Assembly: GCF_003366055.1 (NCBI RefSeq)
Contig: NZ_CP025544.1
Location: forward strand, 541,278-605,277
Length of the DNA: 64,000 nucleotides
Direction of reading: 5' to 3'
From: Candidatus Chromulinivorax destructor
GTDB taxonomy: Bacteria; Babelota; Babeliae; Babelales; Chromulinivoraceae
Below are positions 3,567 to 50,342 of the stretch, piece by piece. How positions within the stretch are numbered: position 1 is the first letter of the stretch; every line of letters begins with the position of its first letter. The position numbers and the translations under genes were made by a program. Under the pieces are notes generated by a model that did not search any database, was not told the DNA's origin, and saw only the letters and a list, made by a program, of their open reading frames with translations.

Positions 3567-4517
3567 ATGCAAAACAAAGTATGTACTATGACAAACCTTA
3601 ATAAAATCAAAATATTACCAGCTCACGAAGCAATTAAGATCGCCGCTGGTGAAGTTGTTGAACGTCCAAGTAATATCATTAAAGAACTTGTTGAAAATAG
3701 CATCGACGCAGGCTCTACAAAAATTACCATCACCGTGCATCAAGCAGGTACATCATTAATTATTATCACGGATAATGGCTGCGGTATGTCGGCAGATGAT
3801 GCAAAATTATCAGTCGCTCAACACGCAACAAGTAAAATTACAACGGTGCATGATCTTGAATCTATTACAACTTTTGGCTTTCGTGGCGAAGCTCTTGCAA
3901 GCATTAACTCTGTAAGCAAACTAAGTATTACGACAAAAACTGAATCAGATCAAACTGGTACTTACATTGCTTGGAGTTTTGGAAATTTAATCGAAGAATC
4001 ATTGCGAACGCATCAAACCGGTACAACCATACAAATTGCTGATCTGTTTGAAAATATTCCTGCCCGTAAAAAATTTCTTAAAAAAAATGAAACTGAATTT
4101 CGAGCAATCGTCACGCTGTTTCAGGCTCTTTGTTTAGACTACCAGTCTATACATTTTCAGCTGTATGATGAACATAAGCTTCATTTTAATTGTCCTGCAG
4201 TTACCAAGCTTATAGATCGCTGCGCACAGCTATTTGATTTTAATTTATATAATAAAATGATACCGCTCACAGAACTAACAAACTCCTTATGCTCAGTTTC
4301 TGGTATTGTTTCGGTTCCTAGTTATTATCGCTATGATCGCAATCAGATTTTTATTTTTGTTAATAATCGCTGGATTAAAAATATCGATATAACCAAAGCA
4401 ATTATGAAAGGCTATGCCGGGCAACTTCCTCCACAAAAATTTCCTGCTGCTGCAATTTTTATTACCTTACCTTCTGACCAGGTTGATGTAAACATTCATC
4501 CAAAAAAGAAGAAATAA
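3567..4517 (+). CDS. mutL: DNA mismatch repair protein MutL, N-terminal part (frame 0)
   Basis: MutL couples mismatch recognition by MutS to strand removal. This part holds the GHKL ATPase and transducer domains: AAGEVVERP, ENSIDAGS (Mg/ATP), DNGCGM, TSKI and GFRGEALASI are all present, and residues ~200-310 match the transducer fold with VNNRW. The frame ends after NIHPKKKK, right inside the conserved MutL motif NVHP-x-K-x-E-x-x-F. If reading slips back one base at the heptamer A-AAA-AAG (4502-4508) the motif is restored as HPKKEEIKF and translation continues to 5530. The start could also be the ATG at 3588 (MTNLNKIKIL), which fits family alignments better. No MutS gene is in the window. Confidence 0.9.
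   Translation: MQNKVCTMTNLNKIKILPAHEAIKIAAGEVVERPSNIIKELVENSIDAGSTKITITVHQAGTSLIIITDNGCGMSADDAKLSVAQHATSKITTVHDLESITTFGFRGEALASINSVSKLSITTKTESDQTGTYIAWSFGNLIEESLRTHQTGTTIQIADLFENIPARKKFLKKNETEFRAIVTLFQALCLDYQSIHFQLYDEHKLHFNCPAVTKLIDRCAQLFDFNLYNKMIPLTELTNSLCSVSGIVSVPSYYRYDRNQIFIFVNNRWIKNIDITKAIMKGYAGQLPPQKFPAAAIFITLPSDQVDVNIHPKKKK
4502..4508 (+). promoter_or_regulatory. A-AAA-AAG slippery heptamer inside mutL
   Basis: The sequence lies in the zero frame as CCA AAA AAG, the exact X-XXY-YYZ phase used for -1 ribosomal frameshifting (as in E. coli dnaX). After a -1 slip the next codons read Glu-Glu-Ile-Lys-Phe and restore the conserved MutL motif. A weak stem (AAGAA / TTCTT) lies just downstream; I see no clear upstream Shine-Dalgarno stimulator. 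A single missing A in the run would give the same picture. Confidence 0.5.
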
Positions 4518-4597: not shown

Positions 4598-5530
4598 ATG
4601 CCAACATCTTTTGCGCAACCAAAAACAACTGCTCAATACCCTGCATTTTCTGTTGAGGTACAAAAATCTCATCAATCTATCAACCCTATCGATATAAAAA
4701 CTTTTAATAATTTTAATTCTTTTGATATTACAGCTGATAAAAACAACTCAATTCCAACAAGTTATAACAGCACCTCTGTCGATACCAAAGTTGAAGAAGA
4801 AACAATAGAATTTACCCCGCCAATGTTTGCATCGCACGCATTTCAAACTCCGGCACAACATCACGATGAAAATATTGAACCAGTGTACGAACAGATAGAA
4901 ATAACACAACATCATGATGCTATTATTATAGGCCAATACAAAACAACCTATATTTTGTTTGAAAAAAATAGCAATTTAGTTTTTGTTGATCAGCATGCGG
5001 CACATGAAAGAATTTTGTACGAACAGTTCAAAAAAAACTTTGCTGATATTGCAACAGTACACCTGATTTTTCCTGAATTTATTAAATTATCATCGCATGA
5101 TATTATGACAATAACACCGTATCTTTCGCTTTTGCGTGATCATGGTATTCATGCAGAACTTTTTTCTGATACACAGCTCATGGTTCAAGCAACACCAGTT
5201 CACCTAAAAAACCAACTGTTACATGAAACAATACAACAAATCATTAGTTGGATTGATACAATCGATGAAAATGACCCTGCAAGAATATCAAACCTGCTCC
5301 ATGAAAAAATTCATACAAAAATGGCATGTTCAGCTGCTATCAAGGCTGGTGAAAAATTAAATTTACAACAAATGCAGCAATTATTAGATGATCTTGCTAG
5401 AATAGAACATCGATACTCATGCCCACATGGTCGCCCAACATTTTGGATCTTGCCAATTGAAGACATTGAAAAAAAATTCAAGCGCGATTATGGAAAAAAA
5501 TCAGAACAATTTTATGATTTTTTATCATAA
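4598..5530 (+). CDS. mutL: DNA mismatch repair protein MutL, C-terminal part (-1 frame)
   Basis: This is the dimerisation and endonuclease half of MutL. The frame is open from 4509, so the ATG at 4598 is only the first methionine and probably not a true start. A low-complexity linker (about 100 residues after the ATG) leads into the C-terminal domain. It has the metal-binding motif DQHA-AH-E-RILY-E, then ACSAAIKAGEKL and CPHGRPT. These mark it as the latent-endonuclease type of MutL found in bacteria without MutH, rather than the E. coli type. Both halves keep every expected motif, which argues that the full protein is made or that the frame break is a sequencing error, rather than an old pseudogene. 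Confidence 0.88.
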   Translation: MPTSFAQPKTTAQYPAFSVEVQKSHQSINPIDIKTFNNFNSFDITADKNNSIPTSYNSTSVDTKVEEETIEFTPPMFASHAFQTPAQHHDENIEPVYEQIEITQHHDAIIIGQYKTTYILFEKNSNLVFVDQHAAHERILYEQFKKNFADIATVHLIFPEFIKLSSHDIMTITPYLSLLRDHGIHAELFSDTQLMVQATPVHLKNQLLHETIQQIISWIDTIDENDPARISNLLHEKIHTKMACSAAIKAGEKLNLQQMQQLLDDLARIEHRYSCPHGRPTFWILPIEDIEKKFKRDYGKKSEQFYDFLS

Positions 5531-10987: not shown

Positions 10988-11578
10988 TTAAAACTCATAA
11001 CCAAAACTCATGCCAAAAACAAAGCCTCCAAGTTGAATATTGCCACCGCTATAAACATTAGGCGTATTTGAATCAATAATTTTATTTTCATACGAATATT
11101 CACCAAAAAAACCCAGTAAAAAATTATCTGCCAGCTGTACATTCAGTCCTGTATTTACAAAGCAACCAATACCTGCACTATTAATAATGCTATCAACATA
11201 CGAAGAATTATTTTCCTGATCAAAGCAAAAATAACGTGGCCCAACTGCAAAAAAATAAGAACATCTTTTACCAAAATTAAATACTGGCCTGAGACCAATA
11301 TCAACAGGTATCACCATGATTTTTGTGCTTTGACCACTATCTAATGCATGACCCCATGCCTCTCGAAATCCGACACTTCCATAAAAATCAAGGTGATCAT
11401 ATACCGGTATCGATGCACTTGCTTGAACTTGAAATCCCCCATGATCATAAATTTGATGCATAGGTTGTGCAGAAAAGAAAAAATAGCCAGGTTTAATCTC
11501 GAGCCAGGAACGTAGATCAGATGCATGCTGCGTTAAAGAACACAGCAATCCAAAAAATACCATAATTTTTTTGTACAT
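10988..11578 (-). CDS. small outer-membrane beta-barrel, partner of the upstream passenger
   Basis: A 196-residue protein with a signal peptide (MYKKIMVFFGLLCSLTQHAS) and about eight amphipathic strands ending in an aromatic residue (MSFGYEF), as in OmpW/OmpA-like barrels. It begins 11 bases after the glycine-rich passenger gene and has its own AAAAGG Shine-Dalgarno, so the two are co-transcribed. It is homologous to the barrel at 34209-34811, which follows a different passenger in the same way: LEIKPGYFF / LEVKGAYFL near the N-terminus, IYDHGG / IYDNGC, and GFVFGMSFGYEF / GALFGAGFGYRF at the end. This repeated pairing suggests a role in exporting or anchoring the passenger; that role is inference. 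Confidence 0.75.
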   Translation of the reverse strand: MYKKIMVFFGLLCSLTQHASDLRSWLEIKPGYFFFSAQPMHQIYDHGGFQVQASASIPVYDHLDFYGSVGFREAWGHALDSGQSTKIMVIPVDIGLRPVFNFGKRCSYFFAVGPRYFCFDQENNSSYVDSIINSAGIGCFVNTGLNVQLADNFLLGFFGEYSYENKIIDSNTPNVYSGGNIQLGGFVFGMSFGYEF

Positions 11579-11589
11579 AGTTCAACCTT

Positions 11590-14121
11590 TTATAATGATG
11601 AAACTGTAACAGTGACTGGTGAACTGACATTACCATCGCTATCAAATGCAACTAACCAATATACGCAAGAAGTACCTGCTGGCCGATTATGATCTTGATA
11701 ACTCAAGGTCGCTGAGCTGACCGTTGCAATCTTTATTTCATCACGGTAGATATAGTAGCCAGTTACTTGTGATGATGAGCTTGCTGCCCATGTTAATTGA
11801 TTATATAACTCATACTGAAATCCAAAATTATTCTTTTTTCCAACGCCTTGAAAGTTAGAAGCTGCTTGTAGAAAACCTAAGAAATTAAATTGAATATACG
11901 TCGGACTACCAACTGGTAAATATGAAAGTGAATAATTTGGAATTTCTCCTGTAAATGAAACTGTATCAAAAGTACCTGTAATACCACTTGAAGTAAGAAT
12001 CGTATACAAGCCTGGCTGAGCATTTTGATCAATAGCAATCTCTAAAACTCCTGCTAACTGTGCAAATCCGGTAACAGAAACTAACGACGTCCCACTGGAA
12101 TCAATTTCGATATGCACAAGGCTTCCCAGCATTTGGCCTGCTGCAGGGCTCAATTGTAAGCTACCAAGTGTCAACGATTCACCTGTATCTGGCCAAATAG
12201 CACCAGAGTTAGCAAAAACAGAACCTGTAAGAGTTCCCATTCCGCTCAATGTTCCTCGCTGTAAACTAAAACTACTATTTCTACAAACATTCATAATTGC
12301 TTGGCTTATAGTTCCATTCACTTTCAAATTTGCATTATTAATCGAGATAGTCCCTTGATAGTCAGTTGTTCCATTATAAACAACAGTTCCATCTCCTCTT
12401 ACATTCACACTGGTACCTTGTCCACCAAAACTCGTATCGTCTACAAATGAAACTTGCTCGCCAAGTGTTAAAATATCATCGCTTTGCAATGCTATCAAAG
12501 TTAAAGATGAGCCTGAACGGAGAAAAATACTATTTCCTAAAGCTGAACCATCTAAGCCACTTGTTGCATCGGGCTGACGACCAATGCCACCAGTCCCTGC
12601 TTGAGTTGTGCAATTTGTTGTAGTAAAAACAGTTGGAATACCAGCAAGGGCTTGAATCGTAAAATTCAAATTACTATCTACAAAAATAGCGCCTCCTAGC
12701 CCACTACCTCCGCCACCTCCACCTCCACCAGAATTTAAACTCACTGTGTTAGCACCTGCACCCCCAGCTCCTCCGCCAAGATTACCTAGATCAGTACCGC
12801 CTAAAGCATTTAAACTATTGGAAGGGCCACCACCGCCTCCACCGCCTCCAGCAGTCGAATTACCACCTGTTGCAGGGGTTGTACCAGATGAATTTGCACC
12901 TCCACCGCCACCGCCTCCGCCAACTCCACCAAAACCACCTTCTACCGTATAATCGGCATCGTAAGCACCTGTCCCAGCTCCACCTCCACCACCGCCGCCA
13001 TAGCCACCAGCTCCAGCTGCTCCATCGATTGAATTTGAACTAGCAGTAGTAACAACTCCTGCCCCTCCACCTCCACCGCCATCAGCACCATTTCCACCTG
13101 ATGGAGTTGCGCTACCTCCCGGTGCAATGATACCTGTAGGCTGCATTCCATTACCTCCGCCAGAACTTCCACCCCCTCCACCTCCAAAAAATCCGGGTGT
13201 AATAGCGCCTCCTCCGCCACCCCCGCCAGCATCATTACCTCCAGTATAGCCACCTGCTCCATCACCAGCAGGATCTAGTAATCCATATCCATTTCCATTT
13301 TGTCCGTCAGTTTGATCTGATCCTCCATGACCTAAATTTGTAGGAGTACCAAGTACAGCCCGAGAACCAATACCGCCACCGCCACTGCCTCCGCCTCCGC
13401 CGCCAGAGGGATTGTCTATTGACACAGTAACATCACCACCGTTACCACCAAAGCCGCCTCCTCCCCCTCCTCCAGTAAAACCAGTTGTTACAACAGATCC
13501 ACCTACACCAGCAAATCCTCCGCCGCCTCCACCACCTTCATCACCAGTCGGAGATACAACAGTAAAAAAACTTCCGCCATCACCGCCGACAGCAGAACAA
13601 TCATAAATCAAAACATTTATCAAGGTGATTGAAGGGTATGAACCATTTAAAAACGATTGAGGCGCATAGATCGCTCCACCTGCACCAAGGCCCCCACCTC
13701 CTCCAGAGATGCCATCTCCTCCTCTTCCACCCTGTGCAATACAATTTTGAAATATCATATTTTGAATCGTAACATTACCCATAGGGATAAAAAACCCAGG
13801 ATAGATATTCTGTCCATCAATAGTAACGGTTGGAGTCAACCCTGAATTTCCAATCGTAATATTTACTGAATTTGCAGAGTTATTGATAATTGGCAAAATT
13901 CCATTCAATTGAATAGTCATTGGAGTATCAAAAACAATTTCATAAGAATCATCTGGACTTGAATTTAATTCTTGATTCATGGTATTTAGACAGTACCTTA
14001 AATCCCCTGCATCTCCCATGTCACCAGGGTTATTATCAGTAGATACTGTTACCTGAAGCGTTGTTAACGCGCACAAAGAATGTGATAGCAACAAAAATAT
14101 CAAATACTTATACTTAAACAT
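11590..14121 (-). CDS. glycine-rich surface protein with C-terminal Fn3-like domain
   Basis: An 843-residue exported protein. After a signal peptide (MFKYKYLIFLLLSHSLCALT), residues 20-125 form a parallel-beta-helix-like segment. Residues ~130-500 are long glycine tracts broken by short motifs, similar in style to PE_PGRS or autotransporter passengers. Residues ~510-745 are again beta-helical and autotransporter-like (GNTISINN-type turns, FDTVSFTGEIP). The last ~88 residues are an Fn3-like domain (QLTWAASSSS, GYYIYRDE, YQDHNRPAGTSCVYWLVAFDSDG). No C-terminal barrel is fused; instead a separate barrel gene follows 11 bases later. The glycine codons make this the most GC-rich stretch of the window, and the proline-rich frames on the opposite strand are artefacts. 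Confidence 0.75.
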   Translation of the reverse strand: MFKYKYLIFLLLSHSLCALTTLQVTVSTDNNPGDMGDAGDLRYCLNTMNQELNSSPDDSYEIVFDTPMTIQLNGILPIINNSANSVNITIGNSGLTPTVTIDGQNIYPGFFIPMGNVTIQNMIFQNCIAQGGRGGDGISGGGGGLGAGGAIYAPQSFLNGSYPSITLINVLIYDCSAVGGDGGSFFTVVSPTGDEGGGGGGGFAGVGGSVVTTGFTGGGGGGGFGGNGGDVTVSIDNPSGGGGGGSGGGGIGSRAVLGTPTNLGHGGSDQTDGQNGNGYGLLDPAGDGAGGYTGGNDAGGGGGGGAITPGFFGGGGGGSSGGGNGMQPTGIIAPGGSATPSGGNGADGGGGGGAGVVTTASSNSIDGAAGAGGYGGGGGGGAGTGAYDADYTVEGGFGGVGGGGGGGGANSSGTTPATGGNSTAGGGGGGGGPSNSLNALGGTDLGNLGGGAGGAGANTVSLNSGGGGGGGGSGLGGAIFVDSNLNFTIQALAGIPTVFTTTNCTTQAGTGGIGRQPDATSGLDGSALGNSIFLRSGSSLTLIALQSDDILTLGEQVSFVDDTSFGGQGTSVNVRGDGTVVYNGTTDYQGTISINNANLKVNGTISQAIMNVCRNSSFSLQRGTLSGMGTLTGSVFANSGAIWPDTGESLTLGSLQLSPAAGQMLGSLVHIEIDSSGTSLVSVTGFAQLAGVLEIAIDQNAQPGLYTILTSSGITGTFDTVSFTGEIPNYSLSYLPVGSPTYIQFNFLGFLQAASNFQGVGKKNNFGFQYELYNQLTWAASSSSQVTGYYIYRDEIKIATVSSATLSYQDHNRPAGTSCVYWLVAFDSDGNVSSPVTVTVSSL

Positions 14122-14189: not shown

Positions 14190-15062
14190 TCAATTTTTAA
14201 AGAGTGGAAGTTGAGAAAATGCATGATTTTTCTGAACATAATCAGGTCGCATGGCAAAAGCAATCGTTGCGTAGCGAGTTTCATCACTCGATACAACAAT
14301 GTGAGGTGTCGGGTTAATACCAAATTCAGGTAAAAGCACACCAGGAATAAGAAGCATTGAGCTTTGATCCTCTAACCTATAAAAATTTCTTAGGGGTGTA
14401 TTAAAATCGCTGCAACTCAATGACGATGTGTATGGAGCAAGAAGAAGGGATTGATTGTTTGTACTATCAAGAAAAAGAGAAAACACGGTCCCATCATAAT
14501 GTGGTCGACGTGCAATATAGAAAGGAAAATACTTAACAACCTTGAGAAGAATAGGTATAACACCATTGCTATACGCAAATATTGAAGCTACTCCTAATTC
14601 AATTGCCGCTTGCTCAAACACAGCTCCATAGGGATACTGAATATCATAACAAGCTTGAAAAAAATTTATAATTTCTGGAATATTCTTAATCTCTGGATAA
14701 CAAAAACAGATATATTCATGAAAATGAATAGAATAATAAAAAGCTATCTGACCTCTTCCTGTTTTTTTAGATTCATCATACAAACCAAAATAATCGGTAG
14801 AATAGTAGTTTTTTTCTGTTGACCGAATAAACAGTTGTTTTGCCCGAGATAATTTATGCAGCCAGACTGGATGCGTATCAAGAAATTTGATAAATTTATC
14901 AAAATAGTTATAAAGAGCATCAAAAACAACAGAGCCATGTTCTTGATTACACATTTCTCTATAACCATTTTGTATAAACTGTTCTGCAAGTGGCTGCGCA
15001 CTGACAGATTGCATAGCAAAAAAAACAAATACACAGGCAAACAACGTTTTTATTCTCAACAT
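14190..15062 (-). CDS. exported 2OG-Fe(II) oxygenase, IPNS-like
   Basis: The C-terminal half has the pattern of isopenicillin-N-synthase-like 2-oxoglutarate/iron oxygenases. H-x-D in RRPHYDGT (His188, Asp190) and the distal His in PTPHIVV (His254) are the iron ligands. ETRYATIAF (Arg263) takes the place of the R-x-S that binds the co-substrate. Such enzymes hydroxylate or desaturate small molecules or protein side chains. Unusually, it opens with a clear signal peptide (MLRIKTLFACVFVFFAMQSVSA), so it should act in the envelope or outside. The start at 15062 is chosen for that peptide; an upstream Met lies 11 codons earlier. It is 68 bases upstream of the glycine-rich passenger on the same strand. 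Its target is unknown. Confidence 0.65.
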   Translation of the reverse strand: MLRIKTLFACVFVFFAMQSVSAQPLAEQFIQNGYREMCNQEHGSVVFDALYNYFDKFIKFLDTHPVWLHKLSRAKQLFIRSTEKNYYSTDYFGLYDESKKTGRGQIAFYYSIHFHEYICFCYPEIKNIPEIINFFQACYDIQYPYGAVFEQAAIELGVASIFAYSNGVIPILLKVVKYFPFYIARRPHYDGTVFSLFLDSTNNQSLLLAPYTSSLSCSDFNTPLRNFYRLEDQSSMLLIPGVLLPEFGINPTPHIVVSSDETRYATIAFAMRPDYVQKNHAFSQLPLFKN

Positions 15063-15148
15063 ACTTACATCACTTTCTCTATAATTTTTATCCAAAGTTG
15101 CTTTATATTGGTATAAAAATTAAAAAAAGTCTTATCATTTTTATATGA

Positions 15149-21613: not shown

Positions 21614-22135
21614 TTACTGCAAACGCTGCTTTAATTGCATAAATCTATCGACATATTTATTAATAGCTTGCACATCATCAATAATAAGCACATTTTCATC
21701 ATTGTATTGTGTTCCGCGTATCGTACAATTCCACGACCCTGTCCAAAGTAAAGGAGCATTATCTTGATTACACCCAAACACAAAAAATTTATGGTGCATT
21801 AATGGCATCGTGTACGGATTAAACTCTTGCGTTCTATGAACAAACACGGGAACTCCTGCCTCTTGCAAAAATTTACCTTTGCCACACGTACACATTGAGA
21901 CTTGGTCGATAATCATCTGAACATCAACACCACGTTTTTTAGCATCAATTAATGCTTGAGATATTTTTTTATCAGTCAGCATGTATACAGCTCCATAGAT
22001 AGAGCTCTTTTCAGCTACAATTCTCTCAATAAGCAATGCTGTTAAGTTATCTCCAGGTGCAAAAAACGCTTTACAATATGACTCAACATAACTTGCCTGC
22101 AAAAACATACCGAGTATCAAAATATACCGTCTCAT
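21614..22135 (-). CDS. exported phospholipase D-like protein with altered HKD motif
   Basis: A 173-residue single-domain PLD-superfamily protein with a signal peptide (MRRYILILGMFLQASYV). It matches the Nuc/MitoPLD group: YGAVYMLTDKKISQALIDAKKRGVDVQMIID, then MPLMHHKFFVFG, LLWTGSWNCT and NDENVLII. The HKD motif (H-x-K-x4-D) reads HHKFFVFG, with Gly in place of Asp, so either the motif is degenerate or activity is reduced. Nuc-type enzymes work as dimers cleaving nucleic acid or phospholipid phosphodiesters. The start at 22135 overlaps the tamB stop as ATGA, so translation is probably coupled to tamB, placing it with outer-membrane biogenesis. Confidence 0.75.
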   Translation of the reverse strand: MRRYILILGMFLQASYVESYCKAFFAPGDNLTALLIERIVAEKSSIYGAVYMLTDKKISQALIDAKKRGVDVQMIIDQVSMCTCGKGKFLQEAGVPVFVHRTQEFNPYTMPLMHHKFFVFGCNQDNAPLLWTGSWNCTIRGTQYNDENVLIIDDVQAINKYVDRFMQLKQRLQ

Positions 22136-24891
22136 GAAAACTTCCATCGCATTTCTACCTCTCCGCCATACGTACTTGGACCATCTTTTATTGCCCGAAC
22201 TGTTACATCATCAGTTAATGCATAATCAGCTTCAAAAATCGTATCCTCAAGCTGCATTAAGTTTGAATCAATGCGGCCATGAAGTCGATCAGTTGCATCA
22301 ATTTCAATTACACCACGGACACCTCCTCGTCCTGTTTGATTCGTAAATTGAGGATAAATACGAACATTTTTAAACGACTGCAACAATCGATTAAAAATAA
22401 TATCTAACTTAGATTTAGAAATCGCTGGTCCAAATATAATTTCATGTAATTTTTGCATAAACATAGCAGGCATAACTGCAGAAAGCGAGCTGTCTTGAGA
22501 ACCAATAAGCAGCAATGAAATAATTTGCTCTTCACTTAAGTGTGGTGAAGAATCAAAATGAATCTGCTGATCCATAACAGTTCCCGTTGCTCGCATGGTA
22601 ATGTTGTATCGTTTAATTTTACCTTTTGCAACAAACTCAAGCATTGGTTCTGATGAATTTTTTGGCATAATCAGAACATGCCCATGGGTAATAAACAATG
22701 ATTTATAGGGGAATTTTAACTCGCCTGCAACAATATCAATTGTTCCAGCTACTTCTGGCTGCTTAACGTTGTTGGTAATATGAAAATCTAAATGAGCTGT
22801 TGCTTGCAAGAAAGACGTTTCAATCGTTATAGGATCTTTTGTCTGAATAGAAATATCAAGATCACAGTTTTCTTGACGAGGCTGCGAAGAATTAAGAGAA
22901 CCAAGCAAATGGTCCTGAAATTCAGCCGAAAAAATATTTCCTTGTAATTGCGTCTTATCCAAGATCAAATTTCCTTGCAAAACAGGATCTTTATCATCAC
23001 GTAATGACAAAAAAATCCGACCTGACAACACTCCAAAAATTCCTTTATACCAACTAATAAGAACACTATCTAAAAACATCGGGGCATGCAAAAATGTAAG
23101 CTTAGATTGACTGTCTAACTGAGCTACAGCATGATCACAATAAATTTTACCTTCGTATAAATTTGCAACAAGATTTTGAACGCTCAAAGACTTATCCATA
23201 AAATTTAATTGCGCTGCAGCTTTAAAACTTTGCATCACATTATACAAAGATGGGATTCTAATATGCGCATCGTGCGTCTGTACATCAGCAAAATAAGTTC
23301 CTTGATGCAAGTAACCGCTCATATCAATCTTACCGGGCTGAGAAAAGCTTGATTTATACTCATCAGGCAGCATATTTTTAATACAATTAAACCCAAGAAA
23401 ACCTACCGTTTTATCTAATTCTTGATCATCTTCATGAAAGTCTAAAAATGTTTCGTCTTTTGTATAATACTTGAGTGAAATAAGGTGAGGTGTTGGCGCA
23501 AAAGCTACTATTGATTCAAATTTTTGATCTAAAAAATTTCCTTGCAATGTAATTTGTTCCGCATCGCATGTAAAGCTACCTTTAATGTGAGCTTGTTCAT
23601 CAAGTTTAATGCTTTCAAGTGAAAAATTATAACTCCCCTGTAAATTATCAAGTGACTTTGTTAATTGAGCAGTAATCATTCCTTTTTTTTCAGGCATCTT
23701 CCAATAACTTGTCCACCACGGTGAAAGTTGAACGCTGTTAATTGCATCAAGTTTCCATGAGGTTTCTGTCGGTGTTGATGTTCCGTAAAACACACAAGTA
23801 GAACCTACAAATAACTTTGTTGCATACCCAATTTTTTCTTTATAAAAAGTTAAAAATGCACGTTCAAGAAGCGTATTATTTTTATATGCTATATTCTGCA
23901 CTTGCAACTTTCCCTGTAATCCAGAACTTACATCCAGTAAATTTCCCATGACCGTTAAGGTTGCATTGCCTGACAAATCTGGAATAACAACTTCATCAAC
24001 TACTAATAGCTGCAGCAGCTCAGTTGCAATGGTAATAGAACAGGTCACAGGAATAGCATGCTCTTTGAGTCGAAATTTTAAAGGCTCAATAATAAAAGAC
24101 TGATCATCGTTTGAGATAATACATGCTCCACGACTTTCATAAATATCTCCTTTAAGAAAACATGCTCCTTTTTCTTGGAGTTGGGGAATTGATAATCGAC
24201 AATCTACTCGTGCATAAATTTTACGAAGATCGTGATCGTAAGGAAAAACAAACATACAATTACCAAAAAAATTCTCGATAATTTTTATGCCTTTATACTC
24301 AAAATTCCCATCAATCGTATATAATTTTGTATGAATACCATCAGAATCTCGGCTCATTTCAAAATTATACTCATAATTTACGTGTATATCACCTGAGCTA
24401 TCTTGCACAATAAATTGCCCTTGCTGAATTGCAATAAAATCAAAACTGAACGGGCCTGCAATTTCCCCACTCAACATCTTAGATAAGGTCTCATAAAAAT
24501 ATGATTTTCCATCACGTTGCTCCTCATGCACAACAACTTGTTCAAAAAAACTATGACATGAAAATATGCCGGTCCATAAAAAATGGCCCCATGAAGAAAA
24601 TATATGAAAATTATCTGCATATAGCGACCAACCATGATGTGAATTTGATGGCATAATTGTCACATGACGAAATTTAATATCAAGTGACAAAAGATCAATG
24701 CTTGCAAGCTCTCCTTCCCAATGACAATCAAAATCGTTTTTAAACATATTCTGCACCGATCGCTTAATTTCTTGGTGCACAACTTCACTTCGAGATGCAA
24801 AAAATAATGCTATAGAACACGCAAGTACGCACCCTAATAAAATTTTTAATAGCACCATAACTGATCGGTACAAAATATATCGTAAATTCAT
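22132..24891 (-). CDS. tamB: TamB-like translocation and assembly module protein
   Basis: A 919-residue AsmA/TamB-type protein. An N-terminal membrane anchor (about residues 10-32, SVMVLLKILLGCVLACSIALFF) is followed by a long beta-rich, repeat-like region, and the last ~300 residues match the TamB (DUF490) domain: VAGTIDIVAGELKFPYKSL, LEFVAKGKIKRYNITMRATGT, SEEQIISLLLIG, FEADYALTDDVTVRA and a C-terminal aromatic end (MRWKFS). TamB spans the periplasm, helping outer-membrane proteins fold or moving phospholipids to the outer membrane. No TamA/BamA gene is in the window. It is the first gene of an operon with the PLD-like protein. The length is somewhat below that of E. coli TamB (about 1,260). 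Confidence 0.88.
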   Translation of the reverse strand: MNLRYILYRSVMVLLKILLGCVLACSIALFFASRSEVVHQEIKRSVQNMFKNDFDCHWEGELASIDLLSLDIKFRHVTIMPSNSHHGWSLYADNFHIFSSWGHFLWTGIFSCHSFFEQVVVHEEQRDGKSYFYETLSKMLSGEIAGPFSFDFIAIQQGQFIVQDSSGDIHVNYEYNFEMSRDSDGIHTKLYTIDGNFEYKGIKIIENFFGNCMFVFPYDHDLRKIYARVDCRLSIPQLQEKGACFLKGDIYESRGACIISNDDQSFIIEPLKFRLKEHAIPVTCSITIATELLQLLVVDEVVIPDLSGNATLTVMGNLLDVSSGLQGKLQVQNIAYKNNTLLERAFLTFYKEKIGYATKLFVGSTCVFYGTSTPTETSWKLDAINSVQLSPWWTSYWKMPEKKGMITAQLTKSLDNLQGSYNFSLESIKLDEQAHIKGSFTCDAEQITLQGNFLDQKFESIVAFAPTPHLISLKYYTKDETFLDFHEDDQELDKTVGFLGFNCIKNMLPDEYKSSFSQPGKIDMSGYLHQGTYFADVQTHDAHIRIPSLYNVMQSFKAAAQLNFMDKSLSVQNLVANLYEGKIYCDHAVAQLDSQSKLTFLHAPMFLDSVLISWYKGIFGVLSGRIFLSLRDDKDPVLQGNLILDKTQLQGNIFSAEFQDHLLGSLNSSQPRQENCDLDISIQTKDPITIETSFLQATAHLDFHITNNVKQPEVAGTIDIVAGELKFPYKSLFITHGHVLIMPKNSSEPMLEFVAKGKIKRYNITMRATGTVMDQQIHFDSSPHLSEEQIISLLLIGSQDSSLSAVMPAMFMQKLHEIIFGPAISKSKLDIIFNRLLQSFKNVRIYPQFTNQTGRGGVRGVIEIDATDRLHGRIDSNLMQLEDTIFEADYALTDDVTVRAIKDGPSTYGGEVEMRWKFS

Positions 24892-25160: not shown

Positions 25161-26870
25161 TTAAAGTTCAGTGTCTTCTTGTAAGGTTGCAACTGATAAC
25201 ACTTCTTCAATCGTGGTTAAACCAAGTTCAATCTTCCATGCACCGTCCTGAATTAATAACTTCATGCCATCATGCTGAGCCTGCGCGCGCAAAACGTTCG
25301 CATCAGCTTTTTCGATAACCAAACGAGCAAGCGCATTACTCATAACCATGATTTCAAATACAGGCATACGCCCTTTATACCCAATACCTAAACACTTATC
25401 GCACCCAACAGGTTTATAAAATGTTACAGTTTTTGCATGAGGAGAAGTCATTCCAATAGAATGTATCATCTCTGCTGTTGGAGTATATTGTTCTTTACAA
25501 TTTTCACACAGTTTACGAACAAGTCTCTGAGCTATAACAGCAAGCACTGATGATGATATTAAAAATGGCTCAACACCCATATCGATAAGTCGAGTAATTG
25601 TTGCAGGAGCATTATTGGTGTGAATCGTACTTAATACTAAGTGACCAGTTAACGCTGCTTGAACTGCAATTTGTGCAGTCTCTACGTCACGCGTCTCACC
25701 GATCATCACGATATCTGGATCTTGTCGCAAAATAGAACGTAATGCTGAGGCAAAAGTAAAGCCAATTTTGTTTTGAACTTGCACTTGATTTATACCAGTA
25801 ATTTGATATTCAACCGGATCTTCAACGGTAATAATATTAACGTCTGGTGAATTTAATCGTGAAACAATTGAATATAATGTTGTTGTTTTACCAGAACCTG
25901 TTGGACCAGATACAAAAATAATTCCGTTTGGTTTTTGAATAACATCTTTAATAATTTTTGCATTGTGCTCACTTAACCCAAGATCTTCAAGCGATGCAAA
26001 AGCTTTACTCTTATCAAGTAAACGCATCACGATTCGCTCACCATGCATGACGGGTAAAACAGAAACCCGAATATCAAAAAATTTATCTGAAACTTTAATT
26101 TCGATGCGACCATCTTGTGGCATACGTTTTTCGGCAATGTTTAAATTTGCCATAATTTTAAGACGAGATATTAAAGCACCTTGAATTCGTTTTGGTGGAG
26201 AAAATGCAAGATACATGATTCCATCAACACGGTAACGAACTGCAACATCTTTTTCAAATGGCTCAATGTGAATATCAGAAGCACCCCGTTTTACAGCCTG
26301 AAAAAGAATGTGATTAACCAGCTTAACCACCGGTGCTTGCGCGCCTGCATTTAAAATATCTTGATCTTCGATCTGTCCAAGGTCTAAACCATTTTCTAAA
26401 ATATTGGTATCTTCTTCAAGATCCTCCATCATTTTTTTAGCACCTTCAAGCGGATAGTAACGATTGATACCATCAATAATAGTTCCTGCTGTTGCAAGAG
26501 CGATTGGTGCATCTTTTGCAAGTAACATCGATAGTTCATCGATAGAAGCTAAATTTAAAGGATCTACGACTAAAATCGTTATTTTGCCTGCAAGCATAAT
26601 GGGCATAATAATATTTTGCCGTAAAAAATTAAACTGAACCTTTGCTAACAATTCAGGATCAGCCATCTCTTCAGTTACAAATTCTATAAATGGTAATGAG
26701 TAATTTTTTGCGTATGCTTTTGCTAAATCTTGTGATGTAATTAATTTATTACTCAGTAAATATGTTTCTAAAGATTCATGAGCTTGCTCTGCATTTTTCA
26801 TCAGCTCTTCTTTATTTTGATGCGCAAGCAATCCCATATCTTCTAGTATTTTCCACATGTCATGTATCAT
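25161..26870 (-). CDS. GspE/PilB-type secretion ATPase
   Basis: A 569-residue hexameric ATPase that powers type II secretion or type IV pilus assembly from the cytosolic face. The N-terminal domain (to ~140) is the T2SSE_N/MshEN type. ATPase motifs are Walker A GPTGSGKT (322-329), the Asp box EDPVEYQITGINQ, Walker B DPDIVMIGE (384-392) and the His box STIHTNNAPATITRL. A zinc site has C455-x2-C458 and C490-x2-C493. The Shine-Dalgarno AAGGAT, six bases before the ATG, supports the start. No other pilus or T2SS gene is adjacent, so GspE and PilB cannot be told apart; a type IV pilus-like competence system is a reasonable guess. Confidence 0.88.
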   Translation of the reverse strand: MIHDMWKILEDMGLLAHQNKEELMKNAEQAHESLETYLLSNKLITSQDLAKAYAKNYSLPFIEFVTEEMADPELLAKVQFNFLRQNIIMPIMLAGKITILVVDPLNLASIDELSMLLAKDAPIALATAGTIIDGINRYYPLEGAKKMMEDLEEDTNILENGLDLGQIEDQDILNAGAQAPVVKLVNHILFQAVKRGASDIHIEPFEKDVAVRYRVDGIMYLAFSPPKRIQGALISRLKIMANLNIAEKRMPQDGRIEIKVSDKFFDIRVSVLPVMHGERIVMRLLDKSKAFASLEDLGLSEHNAKIIKDVIQKPNGIIFVSGPTGSGKTTTLYSIVSRLNSPDVNIITVEDPVEYQITGINQVQVQNKIGFTFASALRSILRQDPDIVMIGETRDVETAQIAVQAALTGHLVLSTIHTNNAPATITRLIDMGVEPFLISSSVLAVIAQRLVRKLCENCKEQYTPTAEMIHSIGMTSPHAKTVTFYKPVGCDKCLGIGYKGRMPVFEIMVMSNALARLVIEKADANVLRAQAQHDGMKLLIQDGAWKIELGLTTIEEVLSVATLQEDTEL

Positions 26871-34208: not shown

Positions 34209-34811
34209 TTAATTAAATCTATATCCAAACCCTGCGCCAAATAATGCTCCATTCAAAATCGCATCTTGCCGTTGCACAGGTGCATTTGCAGCTGAATTAA
34301 AATCAAATGTAACAAACGAATAATCGATAAACAGATCAATAAATAAAGAATGTGTAATATCGATAATTGCACCAAATTTAGCAATGCCGCCAAGGCTCCA
34401 AGCTGCAGTTCTTTCATCAGTTAAAAATGTTGACGAATCGATCGTACGCAAATAGGTTGGCTGAGCACCTAAACCAACATAGATATCGCAATGATCACAA
34501 CATTCAATGAAATATTTTAGCCCAAATCCAAAATTTAATGAGAAAAACTGGGATGGAGTTGCAAATATCGGTGTTATACCAGACTTATTAAAAAAATCTA
34601 TACTGGTAAAAGCATAAATATTGTGAGTAATTTCCGCAGTTGCTTCAAGCCCAACTTCTCCACAACCATTGTCATAAATAGCTTTAAATGTATCATCAGT
34701 TGATAAAAAATATGCGCCTTTTACTTCAAGCAAAACATCTTTTGCTTGTAATCCAATTGTCATTGTTCCTACTAAAAAACCTGCTAATAGTATCGATTTA
34801 AAATTTTTCAT
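34209..34811 (-). CDS. small outer-membrane beta-barrel, partner of the YVTN passenger
   Basis: A 200-residue protein with a signal peptide (MKNFKSILLAGFLVGTMTIGLQA) and about eight beta strands ending in GFGYRFN. It is homologous to the barrel at 10988-11578: shared LEVKGAYFL, IYDNG, FGFGLKYF and GALFGAGFGYRF patterns. It starts 12 bases after the YVTN-protein stop with GAGAGG before its ATG, mirroring the first module. The most economical explanation is a two-gene unit that has been duplicated with different passengers. Its possible role in surface export or anchoring is inference. Confidence 0.75.
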   Translation of the reverse strand: MKNFKSILLAGFLVGTMTIGLQAKDVLLEVKGAYFLSTDDTFKAIYDNGCGEVGLEATAEITHNIYAFTSIDFFNKSGITPIFATPSQFFSLNFGFGLKYFIECCDHCDIYVGLGAQPTYLRTIDSSTFLTDERTAAWSLGGIAKFGAIIDITHSLFIDLFIDYSFVTFDFNSAANAPVQRQDAILNGALFGAGFGYRFN

Positions 34812-34823
34812 ACAAAGCCTCTC

Positions 34824-36161
34824 TTAATTATTTTTAACCGTAAGAACAGAAACAGAAATCGCTGATGACTCCGCATCATCTGCATCAACTGATGTTACAT
34901 AGTAAGTATACGTTGTACCAGGAATACGATTGTGATCATAAAAAACTAACGAACCATTCGCAGAAACAGTACCAGCTAAAACTGTTAAGCCTGCATCACG
35001 ATACACATTATACGATACTGGAGTTGAACCCGATTCTGGAGCTGTCCAGCTGATCGTATTAATATAATCAGTTTGGGTAAAGAACACGTTACTTTGTGAT
35101 ACGCCAGTGATGGTAGCTGGGGGTAAAATGGTTATAAACGTATAGGTTTGAGAAATGTTTGAACTTTGTGCAGTTGAATATAGGTATGGAGAGTTAGGAA
35201 CAAATGCTACCATTCTTGGGTTTCCTAAGTTAAAACTGTTATTATTTACAGTGCCTGTTAATGTATCTGTTGCTACATCCATAATTAAAATTTCATTGTT
35301 ACTTAAATTTGCTATATATCCTGTTGTTCCATCTGAACTAATAACAATTCCAAATGGACGAGAAGGGTTAGTTGATCCTTGATTCACGATTCCTGGAGAA
35401 GATGGCGTATCTAAATTTGTTGTATCAACCACATATATATTATAAACACCAGTATTTTGCTCATAACCTGTTACATACAGTTTTGAACTGTCAAGCGCAA
35501 ATACCATCTGACCACCATTGGTATTTCCCAAAGATAATGAAAGATCTAATGCTATCCCTGCTGTGTATGTTAAACCATCACCTGAAATAGCATAAGGCGT
35601 TAATACACCTGAATAATTAATTACATACAGATAGCTACCATCAGGACTTAACACACAACTACAAGTATTTCCTGTCCCTGTAATTGTTTGCACAACTGTA
35701 TTATTTGATGTATCGATAACTGATACCGTAGCTGCTGCGCTATTAACAACATACGCCAAAGTTCCTGCATCATTGATAATAATCCATGTTGGAGATGCTC
35801 CGACAGCAATAGGACTTCCAACTACCGTATTATCTGATGTTTGAATTACTGATACGGTGTTATTACCAGAATTTGCTACGTACACAAAATTTCCATCTGG
35901 CGTAACAGCAACTCCATAAGGACTTGCTCCAACAGTAATGTTACTTGTAATAGCATTATCTGATGTTTGTATGACTGATACCGTATTGTTAGCATTATTT
36001 GCTGCATATACATATTGACCATTTGGTGTAACAGCTATTCCCCATGTTTCAGACGGCATTGCTATTTGATCTACTACCGTATTATCCGCTGATGAATAAA
36101 CCAGCTCAGCTACTGAAAGTGCTAAGCACATCAACGATATTTTTGAAAATGTCTTTAACAT
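34824..36161 (-). CDS. exported YVTN beta-propeller protein with C-terminal Fn3-like domain
   Basis: A 445-residue exported protein. After the signal peptide (MLKTFSKISLMCLALSVAEL) come seven or so YVTN-family blades of about 42 residues (for example VSVIQTSDNAITSNITVGASPYGVAVTPDGNFVYVANSG), which form a beta-propeller often used for surface binding. The last ~90 residues form an Fn3-like domain (INTISWTAPE, YNVYRDAG, YDHNRIPGTTYTYYVTSVDADDAESS) homologous to that of the glycine-rich protein at 11590-14121. AAAAAGGAG precedes the ATG at 36161. The partner barrel gene follows 12 bases later. Confidence 0.8.
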   Translation of the reverse strand: MLKTFSKISLMCLALSVAELVYSSADNTVVDQIAMPSETWGIAVTPNGQYVYAANNANNTVSVIQTSDNAITSNITVGASPYGVAVTPDGNFVYVANSGNNTVSVIQTSDNTVVGSPIAVGASPTWIIINDAGTLAYVVNSAAATVSVIDTSNNTVVQTITGTGNTCSCVLSPDGSYLYVINYSGVLTPYAISGDGLTYTAGIALDLSLSLGNTNGGQMVFALDSSKLYVTGYEQNTGVYNIYVVDTTNLDTPSSPGIVNQGSTNPSRPFGIVISSDGTTGYIANLSNNEILIMDVATDTLTGTVNNNSFNLGNPRMVAFVPNSPYLYSTAQSSNISQTYTFITILPPATITGVSQSNVFFTQTDYINTISWTAPESGSTPVSYNVYRDAGLTVLAGTVSANGSLVFYDHNRIPGTTYTYYVTSVDADDAESSAISVSVLTVKNN

Positions 36162-46756: not shown

Positions 46757-47404
46757 TTACCATTGCAATCTCTTATATGCTTTTTGATAACTTTCTTCAG
46801 ATTCATAAAAGCTTCTATGAAATTTAAGCGCTTGATTGAGCCACTCAAGAGCAATACAATGAGGAATTATTCGGCGCACTAATGGTTTAAAGTCTTTAAT
46901 AAATTCATCAAAAGGTATAAATTCAGATTCACTTGGTTTATCATCTAATGCAAGAAAATGCCATGGATAATCTTTTGTGAATTCAAAGATAATATTATTA
47001 TAATTGTCATTATACATCCATGCAGAAACAAGAGGATTAGCATCTCCAAAAGTAGTACAAATTTGATAATCTAAACCAACCCAATAGCTACTAGAATTAT
47101 TGGATGCTGGAACTTTAAAAAACCCAGTTTTATCTTGATAATACCTATTTTGCATGAGTCCTAAATTTTGTGAAATCGACTCATGTAATTGTAATTTGCC
47201 CTCAATTGCTTTTTTCAAACATATAATAAAAGGCTCGAATATTTCACTTACAGACTCTTGCCCAATGCATATTTGATAGTCGTCATACACAAAATATAAT
47301 TTAATCATGTCGCAGCATAAACTTATTTTATCAATATCATGACCATGACCTGAAATAATTTTAATATACTCAGATGTTGATAATGAAAATATTAATTCTT
47401 TCAT
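46757..47404 (-). CDS. unknown protein, possible immunity factor
   Basis: A 215-residue protein with no signal peptide. It starts 12 bases after the toxin gene, so the two are in one operon. It is aromatic- and Asp/Glu-rich, with IIFEFTKDYPWHFLALDD and YWVGLDYQICTTFGDANPLVSAWMYND as its most conserved-looking parts, an alpha/beta style seen in several immunity proteins. I recognise no family with certainty. Position directly behind a toxin gene is the main argument for its role. Confidence 0.45.
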   Translation of the reverse strand: MKELIFSLSTSEYIKIISGHGHDIDKISLCCDMIKLYFVYDDYQICIGQESVSEIFEPFIICLKKAIEGKLQLHESISQNLGLMQNRYYQDKTGFFKVPASNNSSSYWVGLDYQICTTFGDANPLVSAWMYNDNYNNIIFEFTKDYPWHFLALDDKPSESEFIPFDEFIKDFKPLVRRIIPHCIALEWLNQALKFHRSFYESEESYQKAYKRLQW

Positions 47405-47416
47405 AATATAACCAAT

Positions 47417-49960
47417 TTAATCTTCTTGTTTAGTTAACTTTTTTGATGTGCTATCTTTCATAAAACCTTGCTCAACTAATGCATCTTTCACTTTTTGGGG
47501 TAAAGTCGTTATATCTTCTACAATATAACCATGATAAATATCTTCTTCTTCATACTTTAAAATTACAACTTTACCATCCTGAACAGCTACACGCTGAGTT
47601 GATTTTTCAACAGAAAATGAATTATCCAAAGCATCTTGTCCATCTCGTGGAGGCTTTCCTATATGATCTGGACTGTTTGGATGATGCTTTGGAGATGGTC
47701 GATACGTTCCATGAGGCGCTTTAGAATTATTATTATTCTGCTCTTTATTTCGATTTGCCTGCAAAATAAAATCATCAGGATCTTGGTTGCCATGAGAACC
47801 GCACCCAGGAGAATCTTTATCTAAATCTGGGGCAGCTGGATCAGATTGACCACATCCAGTTGATTTTGATTCTGGTTCATCAGTTGGACCATGAGCAGTA
47901 TCAGTAGGTCCTTGCTGTGGAGTCGTTGGTGTTGTCAAGGTTGTTGGGGTTTGCAATTCATCAGTTACTCCTCCACAACCACTATTTGGTGAAGGCGTTT
48001 GTGGTGTACTGTCCATAGGAGTCGAATCTGATGAAGATTCTGAAGTCGAATTCGTTGTTGATTGATTGCCTGAATTATTATCAATTTGATTACAAGAAGG
48101 AGTATCTTTTGATGAGACTGGTTTTGTTGCGTTTGTAATAATCGTATGATTACGTGAATAATTTGTGATTACCCATCTATTATTCTCTTTATCTAAAGTC
48201 CAGGAATAACCTTTTACATCATAATAACAACCATCATTACCTCGTAAAGGTTTACCATCTTTAGATAATGCAGCCTGAAAAGTTTCCGCTGAAGAGCTAA
48301 CCGGAAAATAAGCAGAATGATCTGGAAGAAGATCATAAATTTCAGGAGTTGGAAGATTCTTTTCAATAGTACTTAAGACTTTATCAACTTCTGCCTGCTT
48401 TTTTGCAGCAGCAGCTTGAATGGCTGGCTGATTATTTTTGACATAGTCAGCCACCTTTGCTTTAACATCTGGTGCAGAATATAAATAATTCTCCATACCA
48501 TACATAGGCGGTATCTCATGCACATCATGAGAATTTCTTGGAATAAGGTATAATCTTTGAGATCCATTATTTTCAAGCACAACAAGAAGTTGGCACTGCC
48601 TCCCGTCATACTCTATAGGAATCAAACGCGCATCTAAAATATCATCTTGCTTAACAGCTCCCAAAGATCCAATATTAATAGCTTTCTCAAGAGAATATGC
48701 TAAATCTCGCGAATATTTTTCTAATTGATCAAGAACTGATCTTTCTTCAGGTGTCAATTTTTTATAATTTCTTGCCTGCTGTATATAGTCAAAAATAAAT
48801 TCTCTATTTTGATACATAAAGCTTCCGGCAAGAATTCCTACTCCAATAGGTCCTGCAAAAGTTCCTAGAAGAGACTCTAAAATATATGCTTCTGCCAACA
48901 CAACACTTGTTGCCATTATCCTTTTTTGCTCAGAATATTCATTGATTGCATAACTATCGCAATTAAGATTTTCAAGAAAAGAAAAAATATCTTCTAAGTA
49001 TTTTTCATGCTGAGCTTGATAGGTATTTTCTATATTATTTTTGTCTGAATGCCTTGCAATAACTCGCTCTTTATCTCGTGTATCTATGTTGATAAAAGCA
49101 ATAAGTGCCTGTACCAGCTCATCAAATATTTTTTCTTTTTCTTTGCTTGCCCCAGGTTCTAATAATTTTGCAATAACTTGACTGAAAAAAATATACGCCT
49201 GTATCTTTTTTTCTTTTTGAGCTTTTTCTATATCAGTTAATTGATATGATTTTTTATTTTTATATAAAAAATGCCGATTTTCTTTTTCATACAAAGCATG
49301 CGCGGTAAAAAAAGCTTTTATTTCTTCACACTGCTTACGATAAACAAGATTTTTTGTAAGCTCTTCTGGTTCTATAACAGACTGTTTTGTTTGTTTAGTT
49401 CTATCGATCTGCGCTTTCTCTTGGGTGTCTTGTATAAAAAAACTTGCTCCAACAATAAAAAATCCTGCTCCAAGTGCAAGTGGCGCTGATAATACTAGAC
49501 CACTTGTTGCAAGACCGTATATACAAGCTGCAGCTGCCATTGCAGAATAATCTACACCTGCTTGAAGTGAGGTTACTGGAGGAGATTGTCGATCTTCATC
49601 ATGATCATCAGAATCACGATCATCTTTTGATGTGTCAGATTGCTGACCTGGGGCTAATTCAAACCATGTACCAGATGAGTGCTTTGCTGTAGGATTACTT
49701 TTTTCTTTTTCTTTTGAACGCTTTAAAGCAACAACCCTATCAGCAACGCGAGAACCCCGTGGTGCTATATAAGGAGTTTTCTTAGGAGAATTTGTTGAAT
49801 TGGTTTGTTCAATCGGGGCAATAAAAGTCTTATCTGGAATACTTTTATTGATCTGATTACATACATTTTTATTTTTTGTAATATTTTTATTAAATTTTTC
49901 AGTTGCTTGCAATGAAAAAAAACAGACCAAAATCATGCATAGAGATAACAGCTTCTTCAT
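47417..49960 (-). CDS. exported polymorphic toxin-like protein
   Basis: An 847-residue protein. The signal peptide MKKLLSLCMILVCFFSLQA starts at the ATG at 49960; a further open frame upstream lies in foldback repeat 9 and is not coding. Residues ~130-175 hold hydrophobic stretches (AAACIYGLATSGLVLSAPLALGAGFFIVG), probably two membrane or pore-forming helices, then a helical domain (~200-520). Residues ~620-740 are a Ser/Thr/Pro/Gly-rich linker with repeated Gly-Cys-Gly. The last ~100 residues (HGTYRPSPKHHPNSPDHIGKPPRDGQDALDNS, then RVAVQDGKVVIL and HGYIVEDITTLPQKVKDAL) resemble a polymorphic toxin tip. Two candidate immunity genes follow. Whether the target is rivals or host is unknown. Confidence 0.55.
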   Translation of the reverse strand: MKKLLSLCMILVCFFSLQATEKFNKNITKNKNVCNQINKSIPDKTFIAPIEQTNSTNSPKKTPYIAPRGSRVADRVVALKRSKEKEKSNPTAKHSSGTWFELAPGQQSDTSKDDRDSDDHDEDRQSPPVTSLQAGVDYSAMAAAACIYGLATSGLVLSAPLALGAGFFIVGASFFIQDTQEKAQIDRTKQTKQSVIEPEELTKNLVYRKQCEEIKAFFTAHALYEKENRHFLYKNKKSYQLTDIEKAQKEKKIQAYIFFSQVIAKLLEPGASKEKEKIFDELVQALIAFINIDTRDKERVIARHSDKNNIENTYQAQHEKYLEDIFSFLENLNCDSYAINEYSEQKRIMATSVVLAEAYILESLLGTFAGPIGVGILAGSFMYQNREFIFDYIQQARNYKKLTPEERSVLDQLEKYSRDLAYSLEKAINIGSLGAVKQDDILDARLIPIEYDGRQCQLLVVLENNGSQRLYLIPRNSHDVHEIPPMYGMENYLYSAPDVKAKVADYVKNNQPAIQAAAAKKQAEVDKVLSTIEKNLPTPEIYDLLPDHSAYFPVSSSAETFQAALSKDGKPLRGNDGCYYDVKGYSWTLDKENNRWVITNYSRNHTIITNATKPVSSKDTPSCNQIDNNSGNQSTTNSTSESSSDSTPMDSTPQTPSPNSGCGGVTDELQTPTTLTTPTTPQQGPTDTAHGPTDEPESKSTGCGQSDPAAPDLDKDSPGCGSHGNQDPDDFILQANRNKEQNNNNSKAPHGTYRPSPKHHPNSPDHIGKPPRDGQDALDNSFSVEKSTQRVAVQDGKVVILKYEEEDIYHGYIVEDITTLPQKVKDALVEQGFMKDSTSKKLTKQED

Positions 49961-50073
49961 AAGTGATTTTCGATAAAAAAGTAGAAATAATGTATATAAA
50001 CTGTATGTAAAATTGAACTTTTTTAACAAATAAGTCAAATATAAAAACTTGTATATACAGCTACCAATCAATA

Positions 50074-50342
50074 CTAAGCTGTGTGAATCAAATTTAAAAG
50101 TCGTGTACAATCCTACGATATCGCTTCGCTCATCTCCGGAAGCAGTAGTGGCGGCAGCCACGTTACGCTTTTTTTATGAAAAACTACGTCAATCTATGTA
50201 AAAAACGAAATAAACTTTGAGAAATTAAACCTGGCTAAGATTTAAAAAGAGTGCATCTGGCCCACTGGCCTGCAAATTCCCGGAGTTTTTGTAAAAAACG
50301 TAGGGTAAAAATCTTTAGTAAAAATTTGGTTCACAGAACCTA
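50074..50342 (-). repeat. foldback repeat copy 9 (long form, reverse)
   Basis: A 269-bp copy from CTAAGCTGTGTGAATCAAATTT to AAATTTGGTTCACAGAACCTA, with the insert block at about 50174-50254. Together with a terminator it accounts for the 557-bp gap upstream of the toxin gene. Its right end GGTTC-aca-GAACC is itself a short palindrome. Confidence 0.88.

Follow-up and report, generated by a model that had tools for sequence, protein, structure and literature searches.

A C-terminal Fn3-like tag paired with a small outer-membrane barrel on varied exported proteins of Dependentiae and Chlamydiota

Several described systems place large exported proteins at the outer membrane with the help of a beta-barrel. 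In type IX secretion, type-B CTD proteins are anchored by PorP/SprF-like barrels (PMC9143113); the barrel is commonly encoded directly downstream of the protein it serves, and orphan substrates are served by an orphan barrel (PMC12618676). Type V secretion likewise joins a large beta-rich passenger to an outer-membrane barrel, which in type Va is a PF03797 domain at the C-terminus of the passenger and in two-partner secretion (type Vb) is a 16-stranded, POTRA-bearing partner of a passenger with an N-terminal TPS domain. How surface proteins are fixed in Dependentiae and in environmental Chlamydiota, both endosymbionts or parasites, is largely unknown, and most of these organisms cannot be engineered.

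Candidatus Chromulinavorax destructans SeV1 is a Dependentiae parasite whose host is the flagellate Spumella (PMC6561590). From its closed genome of 1,174,272 bp we analyzed one stretch of 64,000 nucleotides (G000:C1:541278-605277), hereafter the window. Two modules lie in the window and a third lies outside it. In all three, an exported passenger, either Gly-rich or a beta-propeller, carries a C-terminal tag and is followed 11-21 nt on by a barrel gene; the tag is an Fn3-like domain of ~95 aa and the barrel is an eight-stranded, OmpA/OmpW-type protein of ~200 aa. Their features are given below in window positions, except for module 3.

10988-11578, minus strand: module 1 partner barrel, 196 aa, with a signal peptide, of the eight-stranded OmpA/OmpW type, aromatic end FGYEF
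11590-14121, minus strand: module 1 passenger, 843 aa, exported, Gly-rich, with C-terminal tag
12688-13731, minus strand: Gly-rich stretch of the module 1 passenger (residues ~131-478), low complexity
11593-11868, minus strand: module 1 Fn3-like tag, C-terminal, passenger residues ~752-843
11788-11832, minus strand: tag-specific N-terminal hairpin of module 1, NNFGFQYELYNQLTW, mostly outside generic Fn3 coverage and a two-strand hairpin in models of homologues
14190 to about 15062-15095, minus strand: gene upstream of the Gly-rich passenger, for an exported protein of ~290 aa with a signal peptide and invariant HxD...H...R
34209-34811, minus strand: module 2 partner barrel, 200 aa
34824-36212, with an internal ATG at 36161, minus strand: module 2 passenger, a YVTN/lactonase-type beta-propeller with C-terminal tag
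34827-35135, minus strand: module 2 Fn3-like tag, C-terminal
G000:C1:295828-297837: module 3, outside the window, comprising propeller, tag and barrel, with a gap of 21 nt

The initial annotation had read the first module as a Gly-rich exported protein of 843 residues with an Fn3-like end, followed 11 bases on by a barrel gene, and the second as a different passenger with the same C-terminal domain and a homologous barrel in the same order and spacing. Both descriptions hold. The open reading frames of module 1 are separated by 11 nt and those of module 2 by 12 nt; the two barrels are homologous over their full length (BLASTP E 3e-8), and the two passengers, dissimilar in their bodies, are homologous only in the C-terminal ~100 residues (34% identity over 101 aa, E 7e-11). 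The Gly-rich stretch of the module 1 passenger matched no Pfam or NCBIfam domain. The annotation's count of two modules is right for the window and too low for the genome, in which whole-genome profile searches found exactly three open-frame tags and three barrels. A fourth, weak tag match in the genome was rejected because it contains stops, and a gene pair of similar spacing in the window (47417-50161 with 46757-47404) was rejected as a further module because it did not match the whole-genome tag and barrel profiles. Homologues of the module 1 passenger with the same layout were found in Dependentiae (L070, L074, L081 and L086) and in Chlamydiota (L250-L256). Elsewhere in the window, MutL appears by eye to be split into two frames (3567-4517 and 4598-5530, plus strand) beside a lysine/A-rich run, for which a frameshift, an assembly error and slippage are options.

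With type V secretion the modules share a large beta-rich passenger and an outer-membrane barrel, and the Gly-rich passenger resembles, by eye, the beta-helical passengers of autotransporters. However, the passengers described here end in the tag rather than in a PF03797 barrel, the 8-stranded barrel is encoded as a protein of its own, and the signal common to the passengers is an Fn3-like domain at their C-terminus. The module proteins showed neither a POTRA nor a TPS domain, and the barrel has only ~200 aa and 8 strands, in agreement with the earlier remark that it is small, unlike POTRA-bearing two-partner barrels, and that the shared element sits at the passenger's end. With the type-B CTD and SprF of type IX secretion, the modules share a C-terminal domain on varied exported passengers, a cognate barrel gene directly downstream, and several paralogous pairs per genome together with orphan substrates; in that system the barrel serves as the surface anchor, and the same is proposed for the tag-barrel pair. 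The type IX barrel is 14-stranded and of the FadL type, whereas the one described here is 8-stranded and of the OmpA/OmpW type, and the tag is a different domain from the CTD. Among 33 tags there was no match to the CTD families TIGR04131, TIGR04183, PF13585 or PF18962 (Pfam and NCBIfam, E ≤ 0.1), and among 25 barrels none to PorP/SprF (TIGR03519). SprA/Sov (TIGR04189) had zero matches in 87 Dependentiae genomes, with control genomes equally silent. By analogy, the tag-barrel pair appears to follow the same logic as type-B CTD and SprF, orphans included, using unrelated parts. We found no description of such a module in the open-access full-text literature.

The tag is a specialized Fn3 domain. 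PF00041 matched 7 of 33 tags weakly, and the modeled fold is the seven-stranded sandwich that is common to generic bacterial Fn3 domains. When compared with solved structures, the tag profile matched Fn3 domains such as those of chitinase and NagJ only from profile position 19-28 on, with five of the eight matches beginning at position 26-28, so that the N-terminal hairpin of the tag is essentially private to the tag family. The hairpin carries the motif N-x-F-x-T-Q-x-D-x-x-N, which reads NNFGFQYELYN in the Gly-rich lineage, and forms two long strands in both AlphaFold2 models described below (module 2 and L086). Unlike generic Fn3 domains, the tag adds this conserved hairpin (NxF.TQxDxxN), an almost exclusively C-terminal placement (115 of 118 tags end ≤12 residues from the C-terminus) and a linkage to the barrel. 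A generic Fn3 domain found in unrelated contexts, the possibility that the initial annotation had held against its own proposal, is not what we observe, given the private hairpin and a position that is almost always that of the last domain. Fn3 repeats of genome G072, which are internal to a large protein in a setting that looks phage-tail-like by eye, were set aside as generic.

The barrel matched PF13505 in 16 of 25 cases (best 4.4e-9) and OmpW in 7 of 25, mostly weakly. AlphaFold2 models of homologous barrels have eight strands, and their best PDB folds in Foldseek were OmpA, OmpW, OmpX and Ail. Fold and strand number are thus those of the small-barrel families (PF13505, PF03922 and PF01389), from which the partner barrel differs in being dedicated to tagged exported proteins and in its weak sequence similarity. 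An aromatic residue occupies one of the last two positions in 139 of 148 barrels; an aromatic C-terminal residue is a trait of BAM substrates. As an eight-stranded barrel offers no pore for the passenger, an anchor or receiver is a likelier role than a translocator. We consider it highly improbable that the small barrel itself exports the passenger, with BAM or as an oligomer, and with the tag as a signal for secretion: strict adjacency recalls two-partner and T9SS type-B organization (PMC12618676), and the genome has no classical autotransporter barrel (PF03797), but OmpA/OmpX/OmpW-type eight-stranded folds have no channel for a chain, and a barrel of 200 residues has neither POTRA nor plug domain. 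PF03797 barrels were seen in 5 of 87 Dependentiae genomes, none of them with a tag-barrel module, in what are small numbers.

To what extent do tag and barrel occur together elsewhere? Among 101 Dependentiae genomes, barrels were found in 19 and tags in 19, with both in 16, only a barrel in 3, only a tag in 3 and neither in 79. Among 234 Chlamydiota genomes, barrels were found in 110 and tags in 106, with both in 93, only a barrel in 17, only a tag in 13 and neither in 111. The two parts therefore co-occur in two phyla, and, as the initial annotation had proposed to check, homologous barrels in other genomes do follow genes with Fn3-like ends. In the fetched neighborhoods, 18 of 26 unique Dependentiae barrels lay directly behind a tagged gene, for which chance gives P < 1e-29 even assuming a tag on 1% of genes. 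The same was true of 50 of the 122 unique Chlamydiota barrels fetched; a further 8 preceded a tagged gene, 7 lay beside one on the opposite strand, 5 were within 3.5 kb of one and 2 were at a sequence end, leaving 50 with no tagged gene nearby. Across both phyla, 68 of 148 unique barrels are directly downstream of a tagged gene (median gap 9 nt, overlaps frequent, gap ≤30 nt in 57 of the 68), 9 more are in front of one and 7 adjoin one on the opposite strand. Tag-barrel pairing is real, widespread and far beyond chance. Its geometry varies: in L097 a propeller-tag gene overlaps the barrel gene by 41 nt, and in L101 the two genes are divergent. A scan for close relatives of the tag, with one genome per species, returned ten loci, all in Dependentiae-type records or in Chlamydiota (three loci), with L097 and L101 among them; because the scan patterns were narrow, the phylum range of the module may be wider. 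No barrel was found on the plasmids searched.

Orphans comprise the 50 Chlamydiota barrels noted above and many tags without a linked partner. In the Chlamydiota genome G195 we detected 12 tags, and no barrel at E ≤ 1e-3, which may reflect diverged barrels or another partner for the tag. At two loci (L060:139-1875 and L061:4379-6148, both minus strand), tagless beta-propeller proteins are followed ~15 nt on by a divergent barrel, possibly a tagless variant of the module.

Because the passenger and barrel genes of module 2 are in frame, natural read-through, with the stop TAA read as Q, yields a single chain; we modeled this chain as tag, linker with signal peptide, and barrel. AlphaFold2 returned a pLDDT of 93.1 and a pTM of 0.83 for module 2, and a pLDDT of 90.6 and a pTM of 0.82 for the read-through chain of L086, the in-frame relative closest to module 1, in which the linker is disordered (residues 104-121 below pLDDT 50). 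From the pTM formula, an unplaced tag would be expected to give 0.57-0.61, and at most 0.72 under generous assumptions; the observed values equal a placement error of roughly 3 Å, with docking read from pTM alone in artificially tethered single chains that share largely the same alignment rows. The tag is thus predicted to sit firmly on the barrel in two lineages, and specific recognition is well supported by computation. This prediction of the tag-barrel complex had been suggested by the initial annotation, which saw in the Fn3-like tag the recognition signal of a display system; the models of both lineages agree with recognition, and display is a step that we infer.

Adjacent or overlapping genes are frequently just co-expressed, and both parts of the module resemble common families, as would be expected if an exported protein ending in an ordinary Fn3 domain and an OmpA/OmpW-like protein were co-inherited in a co-regulated operon and never touched. 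Such an arrangement seems to us distinctly unlikely, as tag and barrel stay paired while passenger bodies swap, the tag is specifically C-terminal with a hairpin of its own, and for two lineages AlphaFold gives it a firm position relative to the barrel. Tag distances and barrel distances were correlated across 43 verified pairs (Mantel r 0.69 overall, and 0.73 and 0.78 within the two phyla; mean after shuffling ≤0.07). The barrel tree groups the Gly-rich module of the window with Dependentiae and chlamydial Gly-rich modules and with five chlamydial modules that have other passengers (100/99), and places the other two barrels of this genome elsewhere; the tag tree divides in the same way except for two long-branch rows. 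Since both trees have this deep split and passengers vary within a group, what is inherited as a unit seems to be the pair and not the species or the passenger. The agreement of trees and distances is compatible with contact between tag and barrel, yet joint inheritance without contact would also give it. Covariation between tag and barrel columns was above that of shuffled pairs and, counted by eye, involved the tag hairpin in 19 of the 30 top-ranking pairs; it was discarded as evidence of contact because it largely mirrors the lineage split.

On which face of the membrane might the tag dock? In the barrel alignment, extracellular loop 1 (L1, conservation score 0.44) is conserved like the strands (0.42), whereas turns T1, T2 and T3 score 0.28, 0.26 and 0.33 and loop L4 is lowest at 0.21; the pattern is alike in linked and orphan barrels. 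The periplasmic turns are poorly conserved and have only 2-4 residues, which leaves little specific surface there. From this difference between loop 1 and the turns, docking is probably on the outer face. If the tag instead docked on the periplasmic side, the passengers would stay in the periplasm, attached to the inner face of the outer membrane, no translocator would be required for such large proteins, and the signal peptides on both genes would be accounted for; the AlphaFold outputs do not reveal the docking face. We nonetheless judge this unlikely in view of the short, variable turns and the conserved loop 1, and very large Gly-rich or repeat passengers would be typical of surface proteins.

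The explanation that we favor, and consider reasonably probable, is that a cognate tag-barrel pair tethers interchangeable passengers to the outer membrane and holds them on its surface. The barrel would be inserted into the outer membrane via the usual Sec and BAM route, and the passenger would reach the periplasm through Sec, cross the outer membrane, for which the genome's two secretins offer one candidate route, and be held there non-covalently through docking of its tag. One conserved base of tag and barrel could in this way present Gly-rich, beta-propeller and other passengers. We infer both the surface display and the export route. Secretins are present in 84 of 87 Dependentiae genomes, and none was found in the module-bearing genome G017; type IV pilus proteins and a pulD channel have been reported for Chromulinavorax (PMC6561590). 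Between modules 1 and 2 there are, by eye, a TamB/DUF490-like gene (22132-24891, minus strand) and a gene for a GspE/PilB-type ATPase (25161-26870, minus strand), both candidates for envelope export. A broader reading, possible though in our view somewhat doubtful, is that of a self-standing presentation system in which a dedicated eight-stranded barrel receives and reads a specialized C-terminal tag, and which arose separately from type V and type IX secretion, was passed between Dependentiae and Chlamydiota, and may have its own delivery route.

That tag and barrel occur in two unrelated intracellular bacterial groups points to a hitherto undescribed means of attaching varied proteins to the outer membrane. 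It would be a second and unrelated solution to the task that CTD and SprF fulfil in type IX secretion. Candidate surface proteins could be listed from genome sequence by their tag, with about 1-12 of them in each tag-bearing genome of our set, and surface display would become a testable prediction.

Finally, the exported ~290-aa protein is encoded upstream of the Gly-rich passenger not only in the window but also in L070, L074, L081 and the chlamydial loci L250-L256; in L086 the contig ends at this point. We found no Pfam or PDB relative of this protein. It is 50-58% identical across phyla, with HxD, H and R invariant, and the spacing of HxD...H...R is presumably that of 2-oxoglutarate/Fe(II) oxygenases. 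Within a set of 87 Dependentiae genomes, full-length copies are confined to those with a Gly-rich tagged passenger, and partial matches were seen in two others. With this conserved gene upstream, module 1 is a three-gene cassette common to both phyla.
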